From Marinitoga litoralis (GTDB lineage: Bacteria > Thermotogota > Thermotogae > Petrotogales > Petrotogaceae), in the NCBI RefSeq assembly GCF_016908145.1, contig NZ_JAFBDI010000013.1, positions 1-58,880 on the forward strand: 58,880 nt of DNA. Direction: 5' to 3'. Both the position numbers and the translations under genes were made by a program. Positions within the stretch are counted from its first letter, which is position 1, and each line of letters opens with the position of its first letter. The notes beneath the pieces are model-generated. The model searched no databases. It had not been told where the DNA came from and worked only from the letters and a program-made list of their open reading frames with translations. Of this stretch, positions 10,593-20,584 are shown piece after piece.

Positions 10593-10608
10593 TATTATCA
10601 AAAAAAAA

Positions 10609-10632
10609 TAAAAGGGGATTCCTCCCCTTTTA
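10609..10632 (-). terminator. Intrinsic terminator of the signalling operon
   Basis: 10-bp stem containing AAAGGGGA/TCCCCTTT (10609-10618 with 10623-10632), loop of four, followed on the minus strand by eight or more T residues. It includes the TAA stop of the GAF-HD-GYP gene and separates that operon from dnaX. Confidence 0.9.
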
Positions 10633-11877
10633 TACATTAATAGTTTTTTCAAGAGCATTAATGACATTACAATCAAACTTAGTCGGGCAATCTTTTTTTA
10701 GCATATCAAAAACCTTTTCTTTAGGCCAAGGTTCTTTATATACTCTTTTAGCAGTTAATGCATCAAATATGTCTGCTACTGCCAATATCTTCCCAAATTC
10801 TGATATTTCATTATCCTTTTTATGATATGGATAACCAGAACCATCTAATTTTTCATGATGTTCTAATGCTCCTAACGGTATTTTTTTTGATAAAAAGTCA
10901 ATTTCCGATAAAAGTTCAGCTCCTATTATTGTATGAGATTGAATTATTTTATATTCTTCATCAGTCAATTTAGAAGGTTTATTTAAAATTTCATCTGGAA
11001 TGCCAATTTTACCAATATCATGTAATAAAGCCGATATTTCTAATTCTTCTAAAAGGGAATCATCATATCCTAAATTTTTTGCAATTTTAACAGCTAGATT
11101 TGAAACATTTTTTGAGTGAGTATGTGTATAATTATCCCTAATATCAATTGCAGTTGCAACAGCCAAAATAATTCCTTTAATTGTACTACTTAATTCTTCA
11201 TATACCTTAGCATTTATTAGTTTATTAGATATTAGCGATGAAAATAGTTCAATAATATTTTTATCTTCAATATTATAATCTCCATTTTTTTTATTCACAG
11301 CCTCTAATACACCAACAACTTCATTATTTAAAAATAATGGGGTTGCAATTAAATTTATTGTTTTATATTTTGCTTTTTCATCTGTACCTTTAAAATGAAA
11401 AGGATTATTTTCTGCATCATTAATAATTATAGTTTTTTTTGTTTTAAAACATTGGCCAGCTATAGAATTATCTATCGGAACATCAACAGTTTCTATATTA
11501 CCACTTGCACCCCCTGAAGTTATATAAAAGTTTAATACGTTTTTCTCTTCATTATATAATAGTATAGATGCTCCATCAGATTCCAATAATTCTCTTAATG
11601 ACTCTTCAGTCATTTTTAATACAGATTCCAATTTAAAATTACTAACTATAAGTTTTAAAATTTCCAATATATTTTTTTTGCTAAATTCAATTACTAAATT
11701 TTCATTTTCATACATCAGGTTTTTTAGTGTTAACAAATCTAAATCACTAAGCTCTTTACTTGAATAAATCTGAAAATCTTGAGAAACATCATATTTATAT
11801 TTATTTTCTTTACCTATTAAAACTCCGTCTTTAATAAATCCAGAAATCTTATATTCCTGAATTAAATTTTCTATCAT
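10630..11877 (-). CDS. GAF-domain HD-GYP protein, probable c-di-GMP phosphodiesterase
   Basis: Predicted cytoplasmic sensor-phosphodiesterase. Residues about 75-210 resemble a GAF domain (ILKLIVSNFKLESVL, then GASILLYNEEKNVLNFY and GVLEAVNKKNGDYN). The C-terminal half is an intact HD-GYP domain: HTHSKNVSNLA, the catalytic dyad HDIGK (His near 286), EHHEKLDGSGYP, and ADIFDALTAKRVYKEP. Family knowledge says intact HD-GYP domains hydrolyse c-di-GMP. I start at the ATG of MIENLI (AAAGGAG seven bases upstream), one base after the FecR gene stop; an ATG seven codons upstream overlaps that gene. It is the last gene of a five-gene signalling operon. Confidence 0.88.
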   Translation of the reverse strand: MIENLIQEYKISGFIKDGVLIGKENKYKYDVSQDFQIYSSKELSDLDLLTLKNLMYENENLVIEFSKKNILEILKLIVSNFKLESVLKMTEESLRELLESDGASILLYNEEKNVLNFYITSGGASGNIETVDVPIDNSIAGQCFKTKKTIIINDAENNPFHFKGTDEKAKYKTINLIATPLFLNNEVVGVLEAVNKKNGDYNIEDKNIIELFSSLISNKLINAKVYEELSSTIKGIILAVATAIDIRDNYTHTHSKNVSNLAVKIAKNLGYDDSLLEELEISALLHDIGKIGIPDEILNKPSKLTDEEYKIIQSHTIIGAELLSEIDFLSKKIPLGALEHHEKLDGSGYPYHKKDNEISEFGKILAVADIFDALTAKRVYKEPWPKEKVFDMLKKDCPTKFDCNVINALEKTINV

Positions 11878-11878
11878 A

Positions 11879-13993
11879 CTAAAACTCCTTTGTTTCAAAG
11901 TTAAGTGTATAAATAAATTTTTTGTCTCTCATATTATAACTTATTGAATATATAATCCCGGAATTTTCTAAAACGGGATAATATATAAATCCTTGAAGAT
12001 TTGCGTTTTCATTTAAGAATATATTATCTACTGTACTATCTTCCAAGAATCTATATTGAACATAATTAAACCCTGCTGTTAATTGTGGAAGTCCTCCAAT
12101 TGAAGGAACATTAACAGTCATTTGGCCATTTAAGATACTATCTCTATCTTCGCTAAATAATTTATTGTAATTAATTAATATATGTAAATATGGTGGAAGT
12201 GTAAATATACTTTTTCCTATTAATCCAAATGATGATTTAGATCCAAGATCCATATAAAAATTATTTGCTACATTATATTCATAATATGCATTCAAATATT
12301 CAATATTAAAACCATCAGAAATATAATTAAATCCAAACATAAATTGGAAATATGGTGGGAAATTCATAGTTGGACCTGCTAGAAATCCGTATACTGTAGA
12401 TCCATCTTTAGTTAATACAACATCTGTTTCAAGCCCCAATCTAAAGAATAGTATATCTTTATATACTGTAGCTAAGTATGCTTGGCTAATTTCATTTATA
12501 TTTGTAGCTTCATTAGTATTTAATATTGCAGTAATTTCTGTATTAAACAATCCAAAATCAGCATCAATATAACCAAAGAAAATATCTGAAGATTTGCTAA
12601 ATCCAAAAGGAACAAATGAAAGAATTTCATATGGCAAATGAACACCAATCTTAAATTTATTTAATCTTATTTCAGTATCAAATACTCTAGAATATGGTAC
12701 ATAATAATTATTCATAAATAATCCTAATCCCTTTGTATATGAAGGACTAATACCGTATCTAATATAAAATGCTGGAAAATCTAATTTTAAATAATTTATA
12801 GATAATGCACTTAATATATTTTCTGATGGTGAAGCATCTTCGCTAGGTAAGCCATAAAATAATGGACTGTCAATATTCTCTTGATAAGCATTAAATCCTA
12901 TACCTATACCTACAGGACCAATATCAAAACTAGGTGCAAATGAATATACTAAATAGCTATTAGCTCCTTTATTTTGTTTTCCAAAAGATATATTACCTAT
13001 ATTAGCTTTTGTTTGTCCTTCTTCAGCAGGTGCTTGCGTTTCTTTTGTTTCTTTTGTTGGTTGTTCTTCAGTAGCAGCTCCAGGTTCCTCTGGTGTTTCT
13101 TCAGGAATAATTTCATTTTCATATTGTTCTAATGGTTTATCTAGATTTTGAATTTGAGGTTTTACTTGTGCAGGAGAATAATTAAACATATTACCTGCAG
13201 TTACTGGGAATAATTGATTATTAACCATAGTATATACTGTTCCTTCAAAAGTTCTAATTTTTGCAGTTTCTCCACTTTTTTCAAATCCAAACTCAGTCCC
13301 TCTAACTCCAGCAACTACAGAACCTGAGCCAACTAAATATTTAGATCCAGGTGCAAGAATTTCTTTAATTTTATTTACAGTTGCTCCTTTTTTTAACTCG
13401 TACTCGATATCTATATCTCCATTCTCATCTGCTCTTAAACGCTTTAAAAATAATTGTGTTTCAGAAGAAACTTTAATTTCAATATTTAAGTTAGGTTCTT
13501 TTAAGTGTACAAAACCATCTTTCAAAGTTAATAATTCTGATCCTTCTTGTATAATAGTTTCATTACTTAAAGAATCCCAAATATCTGATTCCGGCTCTTT
13601 ATATAATACATTTCCTCTTTTTTCCAAAATAATTAAAGTTGTTTTTTCCACATCTAATGCCTTTTCAATAATATTAATCTTTACTATCTTTTCTACATTC
13701 ATTTCTTCATTATAGAACGTAATTATAGATTCTCCTGGTATCCAAGGAGCTAAAAATTTTATTTGTGCTTCACCATTAATTAATTCAATTCCATCAAACA
13801 AAATAAATGGATCATCGAATCCACCTGCAGATACATCTACATTTAAATGGGTTAATGTAGCCCAATCCGAGGATATTAAAATATTAGTTTCACTACCTAC
13901 AATTAAAGAACTACTTTCTAATGTAATTGACAAATTTGCAAAAATAGCTAAAGTTGTAATTAAAAACAATATAATTGATAATTTTTTATACAT
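11879..13993 (-). CDS. FecR-domain envelope protein with C-terminal beta-barrel-like region
   Basis: Secreted envelope protein of 704 residues. A signal peptide (about 1-18, YKKLSIILFLITTLAIFA) leads into an Ig-like segment (20-115). A FecR-type domain follows at about 130-270, seen as ELKKGATVNKIKEILAPGSK and VVAGVRGTEFGFEKSGETAK. Residues about 285-325 are a Pro/Glu/Thr linker (EETPEEPGAATEEQP). The last 370 residues have alternating, aromatic-rich strands (IGIGFNAYQ, FFRLGLETDV, FQFMFGFNYISDGFNIEY), like an outer-membrane or toga barrel. No lipobox is present. FecR domains commonly sense or transmit in the periplasm; a FecR-barrel fusion next to a CHASE2 cyclase is inferred to be the sensory partner. 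The barrel is a judgement from pattern only. Confidence 0.75.
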   Translation of the reverse strand: MYKKLSIILFLITTLAIFANLSITLESSSLIVGSETNILISSDWATLTHLNVDVSAGGFDDPFILFDGIELINGEAQIKFLAPWIPGESIITFYNEEMNVEKIVKINIIEKALDVEKTTLIILEKRGNVLYKEPESDIWDSLSNETIIQEGSELLTLKDGFVHLKEPNLNIEIKVSSETQLFLKRLRADENGDIDIEYELKKGATVNKIKEILAPGSKYLVGSGSVVAGVRGTEFGFEKSGETAKIRTFEGTVYTMVNNQLFPVTAGNMFNYSPAQVKPQIQNLDKPLEQYENEIIPEETPEEPGAATEEQPTKETKETQAPAEEGQTKANIGNISFGKQNKGANSYLVYSFAPSFDIGPVGIGIGFNAYQENIDSPLFYGLPSEDASPSENILSALSINYLKLDFPAFYIRYGISPSYTKGLGLFMNNYYVPYSRVFDTEIRLNKFKIGVHLPYEILSFVPFGFSKSSDIFFGYIDADFGLFNTEITAILNTNEATNINEISQAYLATVYKDILFFRLGLETDVVLTKDGSTVYGFLAGPTMNFPPYFQFMFGFNYISDGFNIEYLNAYYEYNVANNFYMDLGSKSSFGLIGKSIFTLPPYLHILINYNKLFSEDRDSILNGQMTVNVPSIGGLPQLTAGFNYVQYRFLEDSTVDNIFLNENANLQGFIYYPVLENSGIIYSISYNMRDKKFIYTLNFETKEF

Positions 13994-13997
13994 AACC

Positions 13998-14651
13998 TCA
14001 CCTCCAAATAGTTAAATAAGTAATAATAATGCTTAAAGATAATGGGCCTAATTCAGATTTTGAATTAAATTCCTCTTTTTTATAAAATATAACAATTGAA
14101 ATAAATACAAAAACAAAAGAAAAAATTAAAAATAATATATCGCTATAATATTTTATAAATGGTAAAGAAAACCTAAAAACATAGCCTAAATAATCCCTTT
14201 TATATGGTTTTGAAAATCCATCAATCATGTAAAATAATAAACTTATGAAATATGCATTTAATAATCCTATTGCAAACAATTTCGTGTATTCAAAACTAAT
14301 AAACATATTTTCAGGTTTATACATTAAAGAAATTAATATTAACGATGAAAAATGCATAACCTGATCTAGAATATAATATGTATGGGAATTAAATGCTTTT
14401 TTTGTTCTGTTTTTAAATTTAATAGTGTCTATAAGCAAATGAATAAAAGTTAATAATAAGATCAAATTCAAATTATAAATACTAAGAGATGATGGAATCA
14501 ATAGCAAAAACATAGATAAAAAGATAATAAAAATGTGTAACATTAGAACTTTAACCTTTGAATTTTTATACTTTGCAATATAAGAAGTTTGAAAAACATA
14601 ATCTCCTATAAGATGGGTAAGTAAAAAATAATAAAATACTTCTTCATTCAT
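13998..14651 (-). CDS. DUF3307 integral membrane protein
   Basis: Membrane protein of 217 residues matching the DUF3307 pattern: N-terminal FYYFLLTHLIGDYVFQTSYI with conserved His and Asp, then LLTFIHLLIDTIKF and a helix carrying YILDQVMH. About six membrane segments are visible. Function is unknown in the family. It overlaps the end of the degenerate HD-GYP gene by 8 bases and ends 4 bases before the FecR gene, so it is translationally embedded in the signalling operon and may be a membrane component of that system. Confidence 0.8.
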   Translation of the reverse strand: MNEEVFYYFLLTHLIGDYVFQTSYIAKYKNSKVKVLMLHIFIIFLSMFLLLIPSSLSIYNLNLILLLTFIHLLIDTIKFKNRTKKAFNSHTYYILDQVMHFSSLILISLMYKPENMFISFEYTKLFAIGLLNAYFISLLFYMIDGFSKPYKRDYLGYVFRFSLPFIKYYSDILFLIFSFVFVFISIVIFYKKEEFNSKSELGPLSLSIIITYLTIWR

Positions 14652-15807
14652 TTTCTATCACCTCTTTTAAAACACTTACTAAAATAGGGTTAAAAAAAAC
14701 TCCACTATAACTATCCATTAATTCTAATACTTTTTGTTTAGGTAATTTATTTCTATACGGTTTATCTTCTAACAAAGCATAATATACATCTAATAATCCT
14801 ATTATCTGAGCCAATAAAGGTATTTCATCTCCTTTCAAACCTTCCGGATATCCTTCACCATTCCACTTTTCATGATGATAAAGGACAATTTCTTTTACTT
14901 CTTTAGGTATTGTAGGAATTTTACTGACTAACTCATATCCATTCACAACATGTTTTTTTATTATTTCCATCTCTTCTTTAGTTAGTTCATCTTTTTTACT
15001 TAATATTCTTTCTGGAATTCCTATTTTTCCAATATCAAATATCTTACTTCCAAATTTCAAATTTTTTAAATCTTTTTTTTCTAAAGATAGCTTCTCTCCA
15101 ATTATTAAAGCCGTTTTCTCAATATTTTCATTATGCTCCTCTGCGCCAGGATTTCTTTTTTCAAGAATTTTACTTAAGACATTTAATGATTTATCCAATA
15201 TTATATTAAATTTATTTTCTAAAATAGAGTTTTCAATATTCTTATTTATATAATCTTTAGTTTTTTTGAGAATAGCATAATCAAATAGATCGAATCCATT
15301 ATTTCTATACATTAGAAAAAGACCTATATTATTATTTTCAAAAAATATTGGTAAATAAATTTTATTATTTAAACAGAGAATTTTATTTGATTTAAATTCC
15401 ATCTTCATAAAAGGAATCCTTTGAATCAAATTAAATTCTGGATTTATATAAAAATTTATTTCATCTAACTTAAAGATATCTTTTAATATTTTTTTTAAGT
15501 TAATAATGTTTTCTACAAAATTTATATTCGGATATACATTTGAAAGGAAATTATATATATTTCCCTCAAAATTATTTTCATAAACGTCATTTTTTTTCTT
15601 AATAATTTTATCAAGACTGAGCAAATAATTTTCATTTATTTCTTCATAAAAAAATATTTCAACATCGAATTTTCCTTTATATTTTACATTTATAATTTCA
15701 TCTTTTTTATTTGATACATTATTGAACACTTGATTATTTATTTTAATAATATATTCATAATTTAATTTTTTTAATATATTTATGTTTTCTAATAATAATT
15801 CATCCAT
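14644..15807 (-). CDS. Degenerate HD-GYP domain protein
   Basis: 387 residues; the N-terminal 190 residues match nothing I recognise (a few beta-alpha segments, GAF-like at best). The C-terminal HD-GYP domain keeps the first histidine region (GAEEHNENIEKTAL), YHHEKWNGEGYPEGLKGDE and LLDVYYALLEDKPYR. The core dyad, however, reads IFDIGK: the metal-binding His of HD is Phe (about residue 257). The enzyme is therefore probably inactive or altered, perhaps a c-di-GMP-binding or scaffold protein. It starts 5 bases after the CHASE2 cyclase stop with AAGGAGTAG upstream, and overlaps DUF3307. An intact HD-GYP protein is encoded in the same operon. Confidence 0.82.
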   Translation of the reverse strand: MDELLLENINILKKLNYEYIIKINNQVFNNVSNKKDEIINVKYKGKFDVEIFFYEEINENYLLSLDKIIKKKNDVYENNFEGNIYNFLSNVYPNINFVENIINLKKILKDIFKLDEINFYINPEFNLIQRIPFMKMEFKSNKILCLNNKIYLPIFFENNNIGLFLMYRNNGFDLFDYAILKKTKDYINKNIENSILENKFNIILDKSLNVLSKILEKRNPGAEEHNENIEKTALIIGEKLSLEKKDLKNLKFGSKIFDIGKIGIPERILSKKDELTKEEMEIIKKHVVNGYELVSKIPTIPKEVKEIVLYHHEKWNGEGYPEGLKGDEIPLLAQIIGLLDVYYALLEDKPYRNKLPKQKVLELMDSYSGVFFNPILVSVLKEVIENE

Positions 15808-15812
15808 AATAT

Positions 15813-17792
15813 CTACTCCTTTATCTTATATAATTTTAATGGTAGCTCTTTACCTTTAACTTTAAAATCTCCAATATATTCGAATGAATATTTCGAAGAC
15901 CTTTTTACTATTTCTTCCGTTACTATTAGCCACTCATTCAAATCTCTTGTTAAATGCTCTATCCTTGAAGTAGTATTTACTGTATCTCCAATACATGTAT
16001 AATCCATTCTAAAATCTGCCCCTATATTCCCTATAACAACCTCTCCATAATGCATACCTATTCCAGCATTTATTTCAAAGTCAAACCCCATTTTTTTTAA
16101 TTCAACATTTATTTCTTTGATTTTTTTTCGCATATCTAATGCACATGATATTGCCCTATCAATCTCATCACCAAACTCAATAGGAGCACCAAAAATAGCC
16201 ATTATTAAATCACCAATAAATTTATCTATTGTACCATAATATTTATTTCTAATTATATCTGCCATTTGAGATAAATAATAATTCAAGAATTTTACAACTT
16301 CTTCTGGAGATAATTTTTCTGATTTTTCTGTAAATCCTACAATATCTGACATAATAATAACTACATCTTTTTTCTCTCCACCTAATTCTGTTTTTCCTTG
16401 TTCCAAAAGCATTTGTGCAACATAATCAGGAACATATTTGAAGAAAAATGATTTTATTTTCTTTTTTTCTTTTGATTCTTTAAGAACTGCTTGTGCTGTA
16501 TCAACTGTAGATATTATTAAAGAAGATAATAATGGATAAAAAGTATCTATCCATATATTATTTTTAAACATATAATATGATATGAAAATATATATTACTG
16601 GTATTGAAAAAGAAAATAATTTAACAGTAATTTTATTGAATAAAGAGAAGATTAAAGATAATGAAAGCAAAAATAAGAGAATGATTACTGAATAAAAAAA
16701 GTTAATCCTTTGAATTTTATCCTTAGTTATTAAATTTTGTACAGCTGTTGCATGTAAATATACTCCTGGTTCATTGTTTGAAAATGGAGTAATTCGTAAA
16801 TCATATAAACCTTTTGCTGTAGCTGAATAACCTAAAATTGCAACTTTATCTTTAAAATCATAATTATCATATTTGTTACTATAGACTAAATCATAAAATG
16901 AAATAGTATCAAAAATATTTTCGCCTTTTCCATAAAAATTTAATAAATAAAACCCATTTTTATCTGTATTAATTTTTTCATTCTCAATTTCAATAGAATA
17001 GGTTTTTGGATCAAAAACAAAATCCAATGGCGAATAATCTTTATAAAATGCATATAATATTAAATCCATATGAGGGAATAATCCTGTACTAAAACCATTA
17101 TCATGAGACCAAGTTTCTTTAAAAATCAACGGTATGCTTCTCGCAACCCCATCAGGATCCAATTGCCCAATTTCATATGTAGAAGCTGGAACTAATGAAG
17201 AAAAATCAACAATAGGAGGTATTATTTTATACGCAGTTAGTGGGAAAAACAAAGGTAGATATTCAGGATTTTTTATTTTAAAAGAATAATTTAAATAAAA
17301 CTTATTATTTTCAAGATTTTCTTTAAATTGTTGGTTATAAAAATCATAGTTTTTTTTATCAACTAAAAGATAAGTACCTAATACTGTTTTATAAAATCTT
17401 CTTAATATAGCTGATAATAAAATATCGTCCTTAGACTTTCCATTCTCCATTATATTACTCTCAGAAGGAGTTGTAAAAGAAACATCAAAACCTATAGTTT
17501 TAATTCCTAATTTAAATAATTTAGTTATCATTCTAGCGTAATGTTCCCTATTCCACGGCCATTCATCATTAAAATTGATTGACATATTAATTAATGAATT
17601 TTCATCTATTGCTATAACTACAACATCAGATTTTATTTTTTTCTCACCTCTAATTCTATATCTCAAATCAAAGGTTTTCAATTCAAATATTTCAATCCAA
17701 GGATTGTTTAATAAATAAGTTATTATATATATGGATATAAATAAAATATAAAGAAAATGACTAACTTTTAAATTTTTTATAAATTTTCTCAT
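15813..17792 (-). CDS. CHASE2-domain class III adenylate cyclase
   Basis: Membrane receptor cyclase, 659 residues. A short N-terminal membrane helix (about 12-28) is followed by an extracytoplasmic CHASE2 sensor (about 35-345; FDLRYRIRGEKK, VVVIAIDENSL, GFDVSFTTPS, AILGYSATAKGLYDLR). Three membrane helices follow at about 358-430, then a class III cyclase domain. Catalytic features: metal Asp in MSDIVGFTEK (about 482), second metal Asp in IDKFIGDLIMAIFGAP, and DYTCIGDTVNTTSRIE with the Asp typical of adenine selectivity and the transition-state Asn/Arg. The product is thus inferred to be cAMP. It is the first gene of the five-gene operon, with GGTG five bases before the ATG. Confidence 0.9.
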   Translation of the reverse strand: MRKFIKNLKVSHFLYILFISIYIITYLLNNPWIEIFELKTFDLRYRIRGEKKIKSDVVVIAIDENSLINMSINFNDEWPWNREHYARMITKLFKLGIKTIGFDVSFTTPSESNIMENGKSKDDILLSAILRRFYKTVLGTYLLVDKKNYDFYNQQFKENLENNKFYLNYSFKIKNPEYLPLFFPLTAYKIIPPIVDFSSLVPASTYEIGQLDPDGVARSIPLIFKETWSHDNGFSTGLFPHMDLILYAFYKDYSPLDFVFDPKTYSIEIENEKINTDKNGFYLLNFYGKGENIFDTISFYDLVYSNKYDNYDFKDKVAILGYSATAKGLYDLRITPFSNNEPGVYLHATAVQNLITKDKIQRINFFYSVIILLFLLSLSLIFSLFNKITVKLFSFSIPVIYIFISYYMFKNNIWIDTFYPLLSSLIISTVDTAQAVLKESKEKKKIKSFFFKYVPDYVAQMLLEQGKTELGGEKKDVVIIMSDIVGFTEKSEKLSPEEVVKFLNYYLSQMADIIRNKYYGTIDKFIGDLIMAIFGAPIEFGDEIDRAISCALDMRKKIKEINVELKKMGFDFEINAGIGMHYGEVVIGNIGADFRMDYTCIGDTVNTTSRIEHLTRDLNEWLIVTEEIVKRSSKYSFEYIGDFKVKGKELPLKLYKIKE

Positions 17793-17808
17793 ACTATCAC
17801 CTAAATAT

Positions 17809-17817
17809 ATTATAACA
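17809..17817 (-). promoter_or_regulatory. Extended -10 promoter of the signalling operon
   Basis: Minus-strand TGTTATAAT. The expected start of transcription is only about ten bases before the cyclase ATG, so the SD (TAGGTGAT) would sit at the very 5' end of the mRNA. The chemoreceptor terminator lies immediately upstream. Confidence 0.55.
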
Positions 17818-17832
17818 TATTTTATAAAAAAT

Positions 17833-17855
17833 AAACCCCACCCTTGGTGGAGTTT
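17833..17855 (-). terminator. Intrinsic terminator after the chemoreceptor gene
   Basis: Minus-strand hairpin AAACTCCACC-aag-GGTGGGGTTT (10 positions, one G-T pair), followed by ATTTTTTAT. It separates the chemoreceptor from the cyclase operon. Confidence 0.85.
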
Positions 17856-17864
17856 ATCATAATA

Positions 17865-20012
17865 CTATAATTCAAATTTATTTGAGTATTTAATCATTTC
17901 ATTTGTCATTTTTTCCAAATCTTCAATCAAATTATCAAATTGTAAAATTTTTTCTTTTTGATTTGTCATTAATAATGATACTCCATCTATCTTTTCTGTA
18001 ATTTGTTGAATAGAAATAGATATTGATTCAATAGCCTTAGATATTTCTAATGTTGATAATTTTTGTTGATTAGAAATATTAGAAGTGTTTTCAACCATTT
18101 CAGAAATATTACTTATTTCTGATAAAATAGATTCCATTTGAACTCCAATTTCTTTTATAGAATCTATTATTTGGTTTACCGTTTTTGTTATATTTGAACT
18201 CTCATTTAATGCTAAACTAGCATCATTTACTAAAGAATTCAAGTTTTCGGATATATTTGAAGCAGAATGATTTGATTCATCAGCTAACTTTCTAATTTCA
18301 TCAGCTACAACTGCAAAACCTTTACCAGCTTCCCCTGCTCTCGCAGCCTCTATAGCAGCATTTAATGCTAATAAATTTGTTTGTTTGGATATCTCTGATA
18401 TTTGTTCAACTATTTCTTCAATAGCCTTTGATTTTTCAAATAAATTATTTATCATACTATTACTTTTACTTACTAATTTTTCTATATTTGAAACATCTTC
18501 AATCATATTTTGGATTTTACTTCTTCCATTTTCTGCGTTTCTATTTATTTCTTTTGTTTTTAAATTCAATCCATTAGCTTCAGAATTTAATAAATCTGCT
18601 CCAGATGCAATTTCTTCTATATTTGCTGTAGTTTCTTCTACAGAGGATGCAACAACTTCTAAGTTATTTTTTATTTCTTCAAATGATTCAAAAGTATTAT
18701 TAGTTACATTAATTATTTCATTTGATGATTTATCTAAGTTCTCTTCTACACTCATTAATGTATTGGAATACTTATTAAATAACAAAACAATATCTTTCAT
18801 GTTATTTTTTAATAAGTTAAATATATTAGCAATTAATCCAATTTCATCCTTTCTATTTAAATCAATATTTTTCTTTAAATTTCCCTTTGAAACATTTATA
18901 GCGTATTCTTCTATTTTTTTGATTGGTTTTGTAATACTATTTGAAAATACAAAAGATATAATTAAAGCAATAATAATCGTTAATGTTATTGTAATAATCA
19001 AAGTATTTTTTAAATCATTTATTGGCTTAAAAACTATATTTTCGTCTTTTTCTAATACTAATTTAATATTATTTATATTTCTAAAAACATATGAAACACC
19101 TAAAACACTTTTATTAGAATAATTTTTGTATTTTATAACTTTACTAAATTCTTTAGGATATTTTTCAATTAATGTTCCTAATTCCATATTATCTAATTTA
19201 GTTATTAGTTTATTATTCGAATTAATAATAAAAATATTTGTTGATAAATCTTTATTTAAAGTTTTAAATAAAGTATCTCCAAATTTAGCAAAATCCACCG
19301 ATATAGCAATATATCCATATCTTGAAAATCTGTATATAAATGGCATTCCTAAAAATAAAACAGGTTTATCGTTATACATTTCTATATCCGATAAAACTAT
19401 ATTAACATTATCATCTGGTTGCACTTTTAATAATTTATATAATTTGCCAAAAGACGTGTTTTTGATTTCATCATTTTCAAGATTTGCTGTAAAATCATTT
19501 CCTTTTCTTAAAGAATAAATTATATTTCCTTCATTATTAATTAAGTATATATCTTCCAAATTTTGTGATAATGCATAATTAACTAAATTAGGATGATATT
19601 TTCTATGAAGTAAATCATAATCTGATATTGAAAATTCATCATCACCATATTTCGCCAATTCTTCTTCATTAACACTATTCATTTTATATCTTTCTTCTGG
19701 AGCATATTGATTTTTAAAAACATAAACATCTTTTAAATTATTTATATCTTGAAAGTCTTTAAAATATGAATCCATTGTTTTTAACATTATAGGTATGTAT
19801 TGAAAGTTTGCAATATTTTCTAAAGCATTTTTATAATTTTCAATTAATAAATTTGTTTCAAAAACCTTTGAATCAATTATATTATATAAATTGGATTTAA
19901 TTTCATTTTCCAAAGATTTTTGAGATGAATTTAAAGAGATATATCCAATAATAATAAAAGGGATAACTAATATTAAAAGAAAAATAAGAACTAATTTGTT
20001 TCTAAAACCCAT
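17865..20012 (-). CDS. Methyl-accepting chemotaxis protein
   Basis: Transmembrane chemoreceptor of 715 residues. TM1 is at about 5-25 ([19 protein letters not shown]), then a large extracytoplasmic dCache-like sensor region, TM2 near 340-360 ([19 protein letters not shown]), a HAMP domain ([20 protein letters not shown]) and a methyl-accepting signalling domain. The hairpin tip ([31 protein letters not shown]) is near 550-575. No C-terminal CheR/CheB tether pentapeptide is present. I start at the ATG of MGFRNK, preceded by AGGAGGTGTATT; an earlier in-frame start ten codons upstream has no ribosome site. It is divergent from cheW, its likely partner. The ligand is unknown. Confidence 0.93.
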
Positions 20013-20045
20013 AATACACCTCCTAAGATATTCAAAATACACATA

Positions 20046-20074
20046 ATTATAACATTTTTTAGAAAGAATTTCAA
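20046..20074 (-). promoter_or_regulatory. Sigma70-type promoter of the chemoreceptor gene
   Basis: Minus strand: TTGAAA (20069-20074), 17-base spacer, TATAAT (20046-20051), with a TGT extension. Close to consensus; its -35 overlaps the -35 region of the divergent cheW promoter. Confidence 0.75.
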
Positions 20075-20098
20075 TGTTTAATATATTTATGATATAAT
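20070..20098 (+). promoter_or_regulatory. Promoter of cheW
   Basis: Plus strand: extended -10 TGATATAAT (hexamer 20093-20098), with a weak TTCAAT 17 bases upstream (20070-20075) that lies on the chemoreceptor -35. AGGAGGG and the ATG follow within 28 bases. Confidence 0.6.
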
Positions 20099-20125
20099 AT
20101 TATTGATAAAAAAAGGAGGGATATT

Positions 20126-20584
20126 ATGTCTGTAGAATTAAAAGTTGTTAGTTTTAATGTTTGTGAAGAAAGATTTGCGATTGACATTAATCATGTTGAT
20201 ACTGTTATAGAATACAAAAAAACCACTAAAGTTCCTGAAACATCAGATTATATAGAAGGTATTGTAAATTTTAGAAATGAAGTACTTCCGATAATTAACT
20301 TAAGATTAAAATTTAATTATACAAATTTTGAAGATAAAAGTAAATCTAAGGTATTAGTTGTAAAAATAGAAGATAAAAAATTTGGATTAATGGTAGACGA
20401 AGTAAAAGAAGTAATGAATATAAATCAAGAACAGTTAGAAGAACCGCCATCTGTTGGTGGAAATAATGCTGATTATATAAGTGGAATTATAAAAACTAAT
20501 GATAATATGATATTTTTAATCGATGTTGAGAAAATTCTTTCAAAAGCCGAAAAAATAGAATTAAATAAGATAATAAATAAATAA
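20126..20584 (+). CDS. cheW: Chemotaxis coupling protein CheW
   Basis: Cytoplasmic adaptor that links chemoreceptors to the CheA kinase. 152 residues, the usual size, covering one SH3-like CheW domain: VVSFNVCEERFAIDINHVDTV, VPETSDYIEGIVNFRNEVLP with the conserved NxRxxxxPI-type stretch, LVVKIEDKKFGLMVDEVKEV and DYISGIIKTNDNMIFLIDVEKIL. The ATG follows AGGAGGGATATT. It is divergent from a chemoreceptor and convergent with the PD40 gene. No cheA or cheY is in the window, so the remaining chemotaxis genes must lie elsewhere. Confidence 0.93.
   Translation: MSVELKVVSFNVCEERFAIDINHVDTVIEYKKTTKVPETSDYIEGIVNFRNEVLPIINLRLKFNYTNFEDKSKSKVLVVKIEDKKFGLMVDEVKEVMNINQEQLEEPPSVGGNNADYISGIIKTNDNMIFLIDVEKILSKAEKIELNKIINK

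Follow-up and report, generated by a model that had tools for sequence, protein, structure and literature searches.

The window, the whole 58,880-nucleotide stretch analysed here, contains five genes on the minus strand, which extend from 17792 down to 10630 and are transcribed from high to low coordinates. Based on the open reading frames and Pfam matches, gene 1 (15813..17792, 659 aa) encodes a predicted CHASE2-class III adenylyl cyclase, with CHASE2 at about 16659-17723 and the cyclase domain at about 15828-16373. Gene 2 (14644..15807, 387 aa) encodes a degenerate HD-GYP protein (HD_5 at about 14698-15183), and gene 3 (13998..14651, 217 aa) encodes a DUF3307 membrane protein. The exported FecR protein of gene 4 (11879..13993, 704 aa) has its FecR domain at about 13235-13480. 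Gene 5 (10630..11877, 415 aa) encodes a GAF-HD-GYP protein, a predicted c-di-GMP phosphodiesterase; we favour the ATG at 11877 as its start over the TTG at 11898 given in the list of open reading frames.

From gene 1 to gene 5, the junctions are a 5-base gap, an 8-base overlap, a 4-base gap and a 1-base gap, in agreement with the sequence-only reading of this DNA, which had described the genes as tightly packed or overlapping. That reading had also given them a shared promoter and terminator. A terminator-like hairpin with a T tract (10608..10633, minus strand) follows gene 5 and forms the operon end, and another (17830..17858, minus strand) ends the upstream MCP gene and provides the upstream border; six terminator-like sites were counted, where 1.7 ± 1.4 would be expected. 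The single promoter is plausible: a weak candidate -10 box, TATAAT, locates at 17809..17814 on the minus strand, and promoter-like matches in this AT-rich region are no more frequent than in shuffles (90 versus 85 ± 11). Downstream of the operon lie dnaX and a glycosyltransferase gene. Upstream, we notice a chemoreceptor (MCP) gene and a divergent cheW (window 17865-20584), which adjoin the operon only within the same genus.

Distribution and descent of the operon

Searching 103 Thermotogota genomes revealed the cyclase in 37 and DUF3307 in 41; about 30 have a FecR protein that matches across most of its length. In the neighbourhood tables, all five genes are intact and contiguous in the order AC-HD1-DUF3307-FecR-GAF.HDGYP in 25 of the 103 genomes, the window included, and these genomes belong to families f1, f9, f10 and f11. 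Further operon loci are interrupted by contig ends and match the same order as far as the sequence reaches. The order is the same across families despite a cyclase identity of 42-53% and changing flanks; outside the window's genus, MCP, dnaX and glycosyltransferase no longer hold their position beside the operon. The sequence-only reading had proposed to check the five-gene unit by its order in related genomes and took scattered genes as evidence against it, and apart from L050 (below) no such scattering is seen. The five genes are one deeply conserved operon, which is more than local packing.

Family f5 has a short form, consisting of the cyclase, a GAF-GAF-HD-GYP gene and DUF3307. No FecR gene was detected in this family in the Thermotogota genome search, and FecR is therefore not a constant member. 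We built a tree from 33 cyclases of Thermotogota and 19 others. All Thermotogota cyclases form one clade with 100/100 support, in which f5 splits first and f1, f10 and f11 are each one group. The simplest reading of the distribution would be one old acquisition, followed by vertical descent and repeated loss.

One genome (L066) carries fragments of the cyclase, which look like one such loss. At L050:4139-8289, the cyclase is inverted between two identical transposase genes and split from the rest of the operon. A further candidate for operon decay, L053 (G041), was dropped, as its glycosyltransferase gene is also broken, the genome is 87% complete and sequencing frameshifts are possible.

Properties of the five proteins and candidate cAMP receivers

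The product of gene 1 matches CHASE2 (PF05226) with 146 bits and Guanylate_cyc (PF00211) with 88 bits. Hydrophobic segments at residues 10-28 and 360-406 fit the layout of a CHASE2 sensor, namely an N-terminal helix, an extracytoplasmic CHASE2 domain and further membrane helices. In the cyclase domain, D483, D528, K524, T599, N606 and R610 are kept in 33/33 orthologues; they provide the two metal Asp, the base-specifying Lys and Thr, and the transition-state Asn and Arg. The Thr stands in place of the adenine-specifying Asp, which we take to be the class IIIb signature. Among solved structures, the domain is closest to bacterial class III adenylyl cyclases, for example CyaB. By its catalytic residues, gene 1 is a predicted class IIIb adenylyl cyclase, as the earlier assignment to the CHASE2 adenylate cyclases had it, and it is the sole class III cyclase (PF00211) gene in the window's genome.

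Meanwhile, four genes of this genome account for five cNMP-binding matches. One encodes a tandem cNMP protein of 452 aa, which we counted when its match had an E of about 1e-15 or lower and its frame was at least 330 aa long. Of the 37 cyclase genomes, 27 carry it, and in the other 10 it was not detected; of the 66 without a cyclase, 0 carry it. Fisher p is 7e-17 by genome and 2e-6 by genus, both inflated by shared ancestry. The second domain of the protein keeps the GE...R cassette; in known proteins, the Glu and Arg of this cassette make contact with cAMP. Another receiver candidate is a single cNMP-domain gene (168 aa; L232, G000:C6:63786-64289), located directly after an Ion_trans_2/TrkA-N (RCK) K+ channel gene. 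This pair recurs in f1, f10 and f11, in 10 genomes with a cyclase. The 168 aa protein carries the canonical FGEMSL...PRSA cassette and is closest to PKA regulatory subunits; it also matches the SthK channel domain.

Predicted cNMP-binding proteins outside transcription track the cyclase, and this co-occurrence is new here; like the gene order, its conservation and the intact or degenerate active sites, it is read off the sequences. The operon context names candidate cAMP receptors open to a binding assay. cAMP signalling in Thermotogota appears to be undescribed in the literature that we searched, which may be because Thermotoga maritima, the model species, does not figure among the control genomes that matched a class III cyclase.

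The tandem cNMP gene of the window's genome (L220, G000:C1:59767-61122) lies directly after minD-minE-yjbQ. We dropped this min-operon position as a functional link, since the gene follows lepA in another genus (L248) and the arrangement looks genus-specific. Orthologues of the tandem protein are duplicated in several species of the window's genus. We also notice a third cNMP gene, which, together with a gene for an unknown protein of 170 aa, comes directly downstream of the gene for a PBP transpeptidase (L217, G000:C19, 140-2821); the phosphate cassette of this cNMP gene appears degenerate.

Gene 5 matches HD_5 (138 bits) and GAF. The HD pair, the Lys, the third His, HHExxDGxGYP and the distal Asp are kept in 27/27 sequences, and the first His column is H in all 27 except L061. 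The metal-site motif HD...H...HHExxDGxGYP...D of HD-GYP phosphodiesterases is present. PmGH, the GAF-HD-GYP protein of Persephonella marina (PDB 4mcw), aligns with gene 5 through both GAF and HD-GYP over 335 aa (E 1e-58). The positions of HD, Lys, His, HH and Asp are common to both, whereas the Glu of the PmGH motif PETQNH is a Tyr in gene 5. In PmGH, this Glu is presumably the third-metal ligand. After PmGH, the solved relatives of the GAF domain include cNMP-binding GAFs (1ykd, PDE2A). The GAF motif NK..F...D is found in nearly all gene 5 orthologues; we rejected it as a mark of cNMP binding, since it is widespread and not diagnostic.

In contrast to gene 5, gene 2 (HD_5, 126 bits) keeps HHExWNGEGYP and has its HD pair replaced by FD at about 15034-15039. 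The window and its genus have FD at this position, several genera have YD, and genus g27 has AN or IN. Such replacements occur in 31/33 sequences, and the intact HD is found only in the two f5 genomes. Further metal ligands are gone in f9 and f10, and HHExxDGSG is kept almost everywhere. Gene 2 appears to descend from an HD-GYP enzyme and to have become a pseudo-enzyme in the lineages that carry gene 5 as well. The two proteins bear out the earlier statement that one HD-GYP is intact and one degenerate. The window's genome has 16 GGDEF matches, so c-di-GMP is probably produced.

The protein of gene 4 is built from a signal-like helix, a beta-rich N-terminal region, the FecR domain, an acidic/proline linker and a C-terminal region of ~370 aa. 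Its FecR (PF04773) match in the window, 22.7 bits, is just under the Pfam cut-off of 24, but each of the 17 orthologues that we scanned hits FecR with E <= 0.1 (3.5e-16 for the strongest), and the motif AGVRGT is invariant in the domain. The C-terminal 370 residues also occur alone, as exported proteins of ~400 aa in many Thermotogota, cyclase-less genomes included. Two of these stand-alone homologues (L244:2946-4142 and L246:2083-3264) both end in Phe and have no Pfam match, and a C-terminal F or W is found in many, not all, gene 4 orthologues. These features fit a putative outer-membrane barrel, and the toga-like barrel of the sequence-only reading stays a candidate fold. The single-sequence AlphaFold model of gene 4 has a pLDDT of 33, the excess of amphipathic strands is weak (32/300 shuffles are as high), and the PDB search with the FecR profile gave no solved relative.

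Gene 3 matches DUF3307 (PF11750) with 90.4 bits against a cut-off of 23. Residues H13, D17, Q21, K28, H39, H71, D75, K78, D95 and H99 are kept in at least 90% of 33 sequences and sit in predicted membrane helices, and the single-sequence AlphaFold model is all helical (pLDDT 57), though, like that of gene 4, of too low quality for comparison with known folds. Because the conserved charged residues lie inside membrane helices, an active or ion-binding role of DUF3307 is suggested. The phylum-wide operon gives this family a testable functional setting.

Partners in other phyla and a possible envelope-to-cAMP relay

CHASE2-AC, an FecR outer-membrane protein and a phosphodiesterase are clustered in Campylobacterota (PMC9239204), and the Thermotogota operon clusters the same three gene kinds. 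On the other hand, the Campylobacterota cluster involves a TPR protein, and its description includes neither DUF3307 nor the C-terminal region seen in Thermotogota nor a second, degenerate HD-GYP. The cluster was acquired by transfer, whereas the descent in Thermotogota appears vertical, and the phosphodiesterase of the Thermotogota operon belongs to the HD-GYP (c-di-GMP) type and not to the class-II cAMP PDEs. The combination, which the sequence-only reading did not recognise, is thus less isolated than it seemed. The operon as a whole set, together with its likely receivers, is undescribed in the literature searched; its parts are known elsewhere.

The operon may well work as one signalling unit, inherited vertically, through which the state of the envelope is passed on to cAMP, a reading to which we give about even weight. 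The sequence-only proposal of an envelope-sensing system that converts surface state into two second messengers is partly supported; its hypothetical elements are the sensing of the envelope and the role of both cAMP and c-di-GMP as outputs. For such a unit, we infer the export route, contacts, signal, direction of regulation and enzymatic activities as follows. The exported FecR protein, with an outer-membrane barrel and a periplasmic FecR domain, would register the state of the outer envelope. Its FecR part would contact the periplasmic CHASE2 of the inner-membrane cyclase, either directly or with the DUF3307 membrane protein, and the cytoplasmic class IIIb domain would produce cAMP. The main readers of this cAMP would be cNMP-binding proteins outside transcription, including the one encoded beside the RCK K+ channel gene. 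The HD-GYP pair would tie the unit to c-di-GMP: gene 5 would supply the phosphodiesterase activity, while gene 2, catalytically dead, would serve for binding or as a scaffold. The GAF of gene 5 is possibly the entry point for a nucleotide or other signal.

It is also conceivable, if doubtful, that CHASE2 alone senses a small extracytoplasmic ligand, and that the FecR protein and DUF3307 are not receptors but envelope proteins expressed along with the cyclase, either as targets or for housekeeping. The short form of f5, which keeps AC-HD-DUF3307 without FecR, is in line with this, as are the many CHASE2 cyclases outside the phylum for which no FecR gene was found nearby. However, across 80 loci with CHASE2 cyclases outside the phylum, a FecR-like gene is at most four genes away from CHASE2-AC in 19 cases and further off in 0, well above the local background. 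An exported FecR protein (LysM-FecR) also adjoins a CHASE2 sensor in the Burkholderia BiofilmReg operon (PMC5192318), in which the output is a histidine kinase and response regulator instead of a cyclase. With these counts and the published precedents, the earlier remark that FecR and CHASE2 genes are known neighbours is upheld.

Genetics in Sinorhizobium likewise speaks against sensing by CHASE2 alone and for the relay from the FecR protein to the cyclase. There, the outer-membrane beta-barrel NsrA is needed for CHASE2 cyclase signalling (PMC7529298, PMC13001267). The NsrA - CyaD1/CyaD2/CyaK - Clr pathway resembles the proposed relay in that an outer-membrane barrel acts upstream of inner-membrane CHASE2 cyclases making cAMP (PMC7529298), but its reader is the transcription factor Clr, its signal is a plant protein, and no such five-gene operon is described. 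With the Thermotogota operon, a relay of the NsrA type, leading from the outer membrane to a cyclase, would have a second lineage. In a more specific version, the FecR protein would drive the CHASE2 cyclase, DUF3307 would be the intramembrane coupler and the dead HD-GYP the scaffold, and cAMP would act mainly without a transcription factor, via free-standing PKA-R-like cNMP domains that gate the K+ channel and touch the division machinery. We put this version forward tentatively and consider it rather unlikely.

The operon might instead be centred on c-di-GMP, with cAMP mainly controlling the GAF-HD-GYP protein, which would lower c-di-GMP, so that cAMP would act only through c-di-GMP. In the 80 loci from other phyla, GAF-HD-GYP-like genes lie within four genes of CHASE2-AC 17 times and further away 3 times; one of the 17, the L185 neighbour taken for an HD-GYP, is actually a GAF-SpoIIE protein. 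In Campylobacterota, a class-II cAMP phosphodiesterase (PDEase_II) is fused to GAF-HD-GYP beside the CHASE2 cyclase (L170:10044-12437, L159:7526-9871), possibly a two-messenger phosphodiesterase that joins both messengers in one polypeptide. This recurrence and the cNMP-binding relatives of the gene 5 GAF would suit a c-di-GMP-centred unit, but separate cNMP-binding proteins track the cyclase in the genome and the GAF motif is not diagnostic, and we regard it as improbable. DUF3307 was seen beside or near a CHASE2 cyclase in one Elusimicrobiota and one Auribacterota genome, too few for significance.

Chance co-transcription in a compact genome, with no functional unit, would suit the gene density of Thermotogota genomes, but it is already contradicted by the constant order across diverged families with changing flanks and by the recurrence of the partners outside the phylum, which leaves it barely credible.
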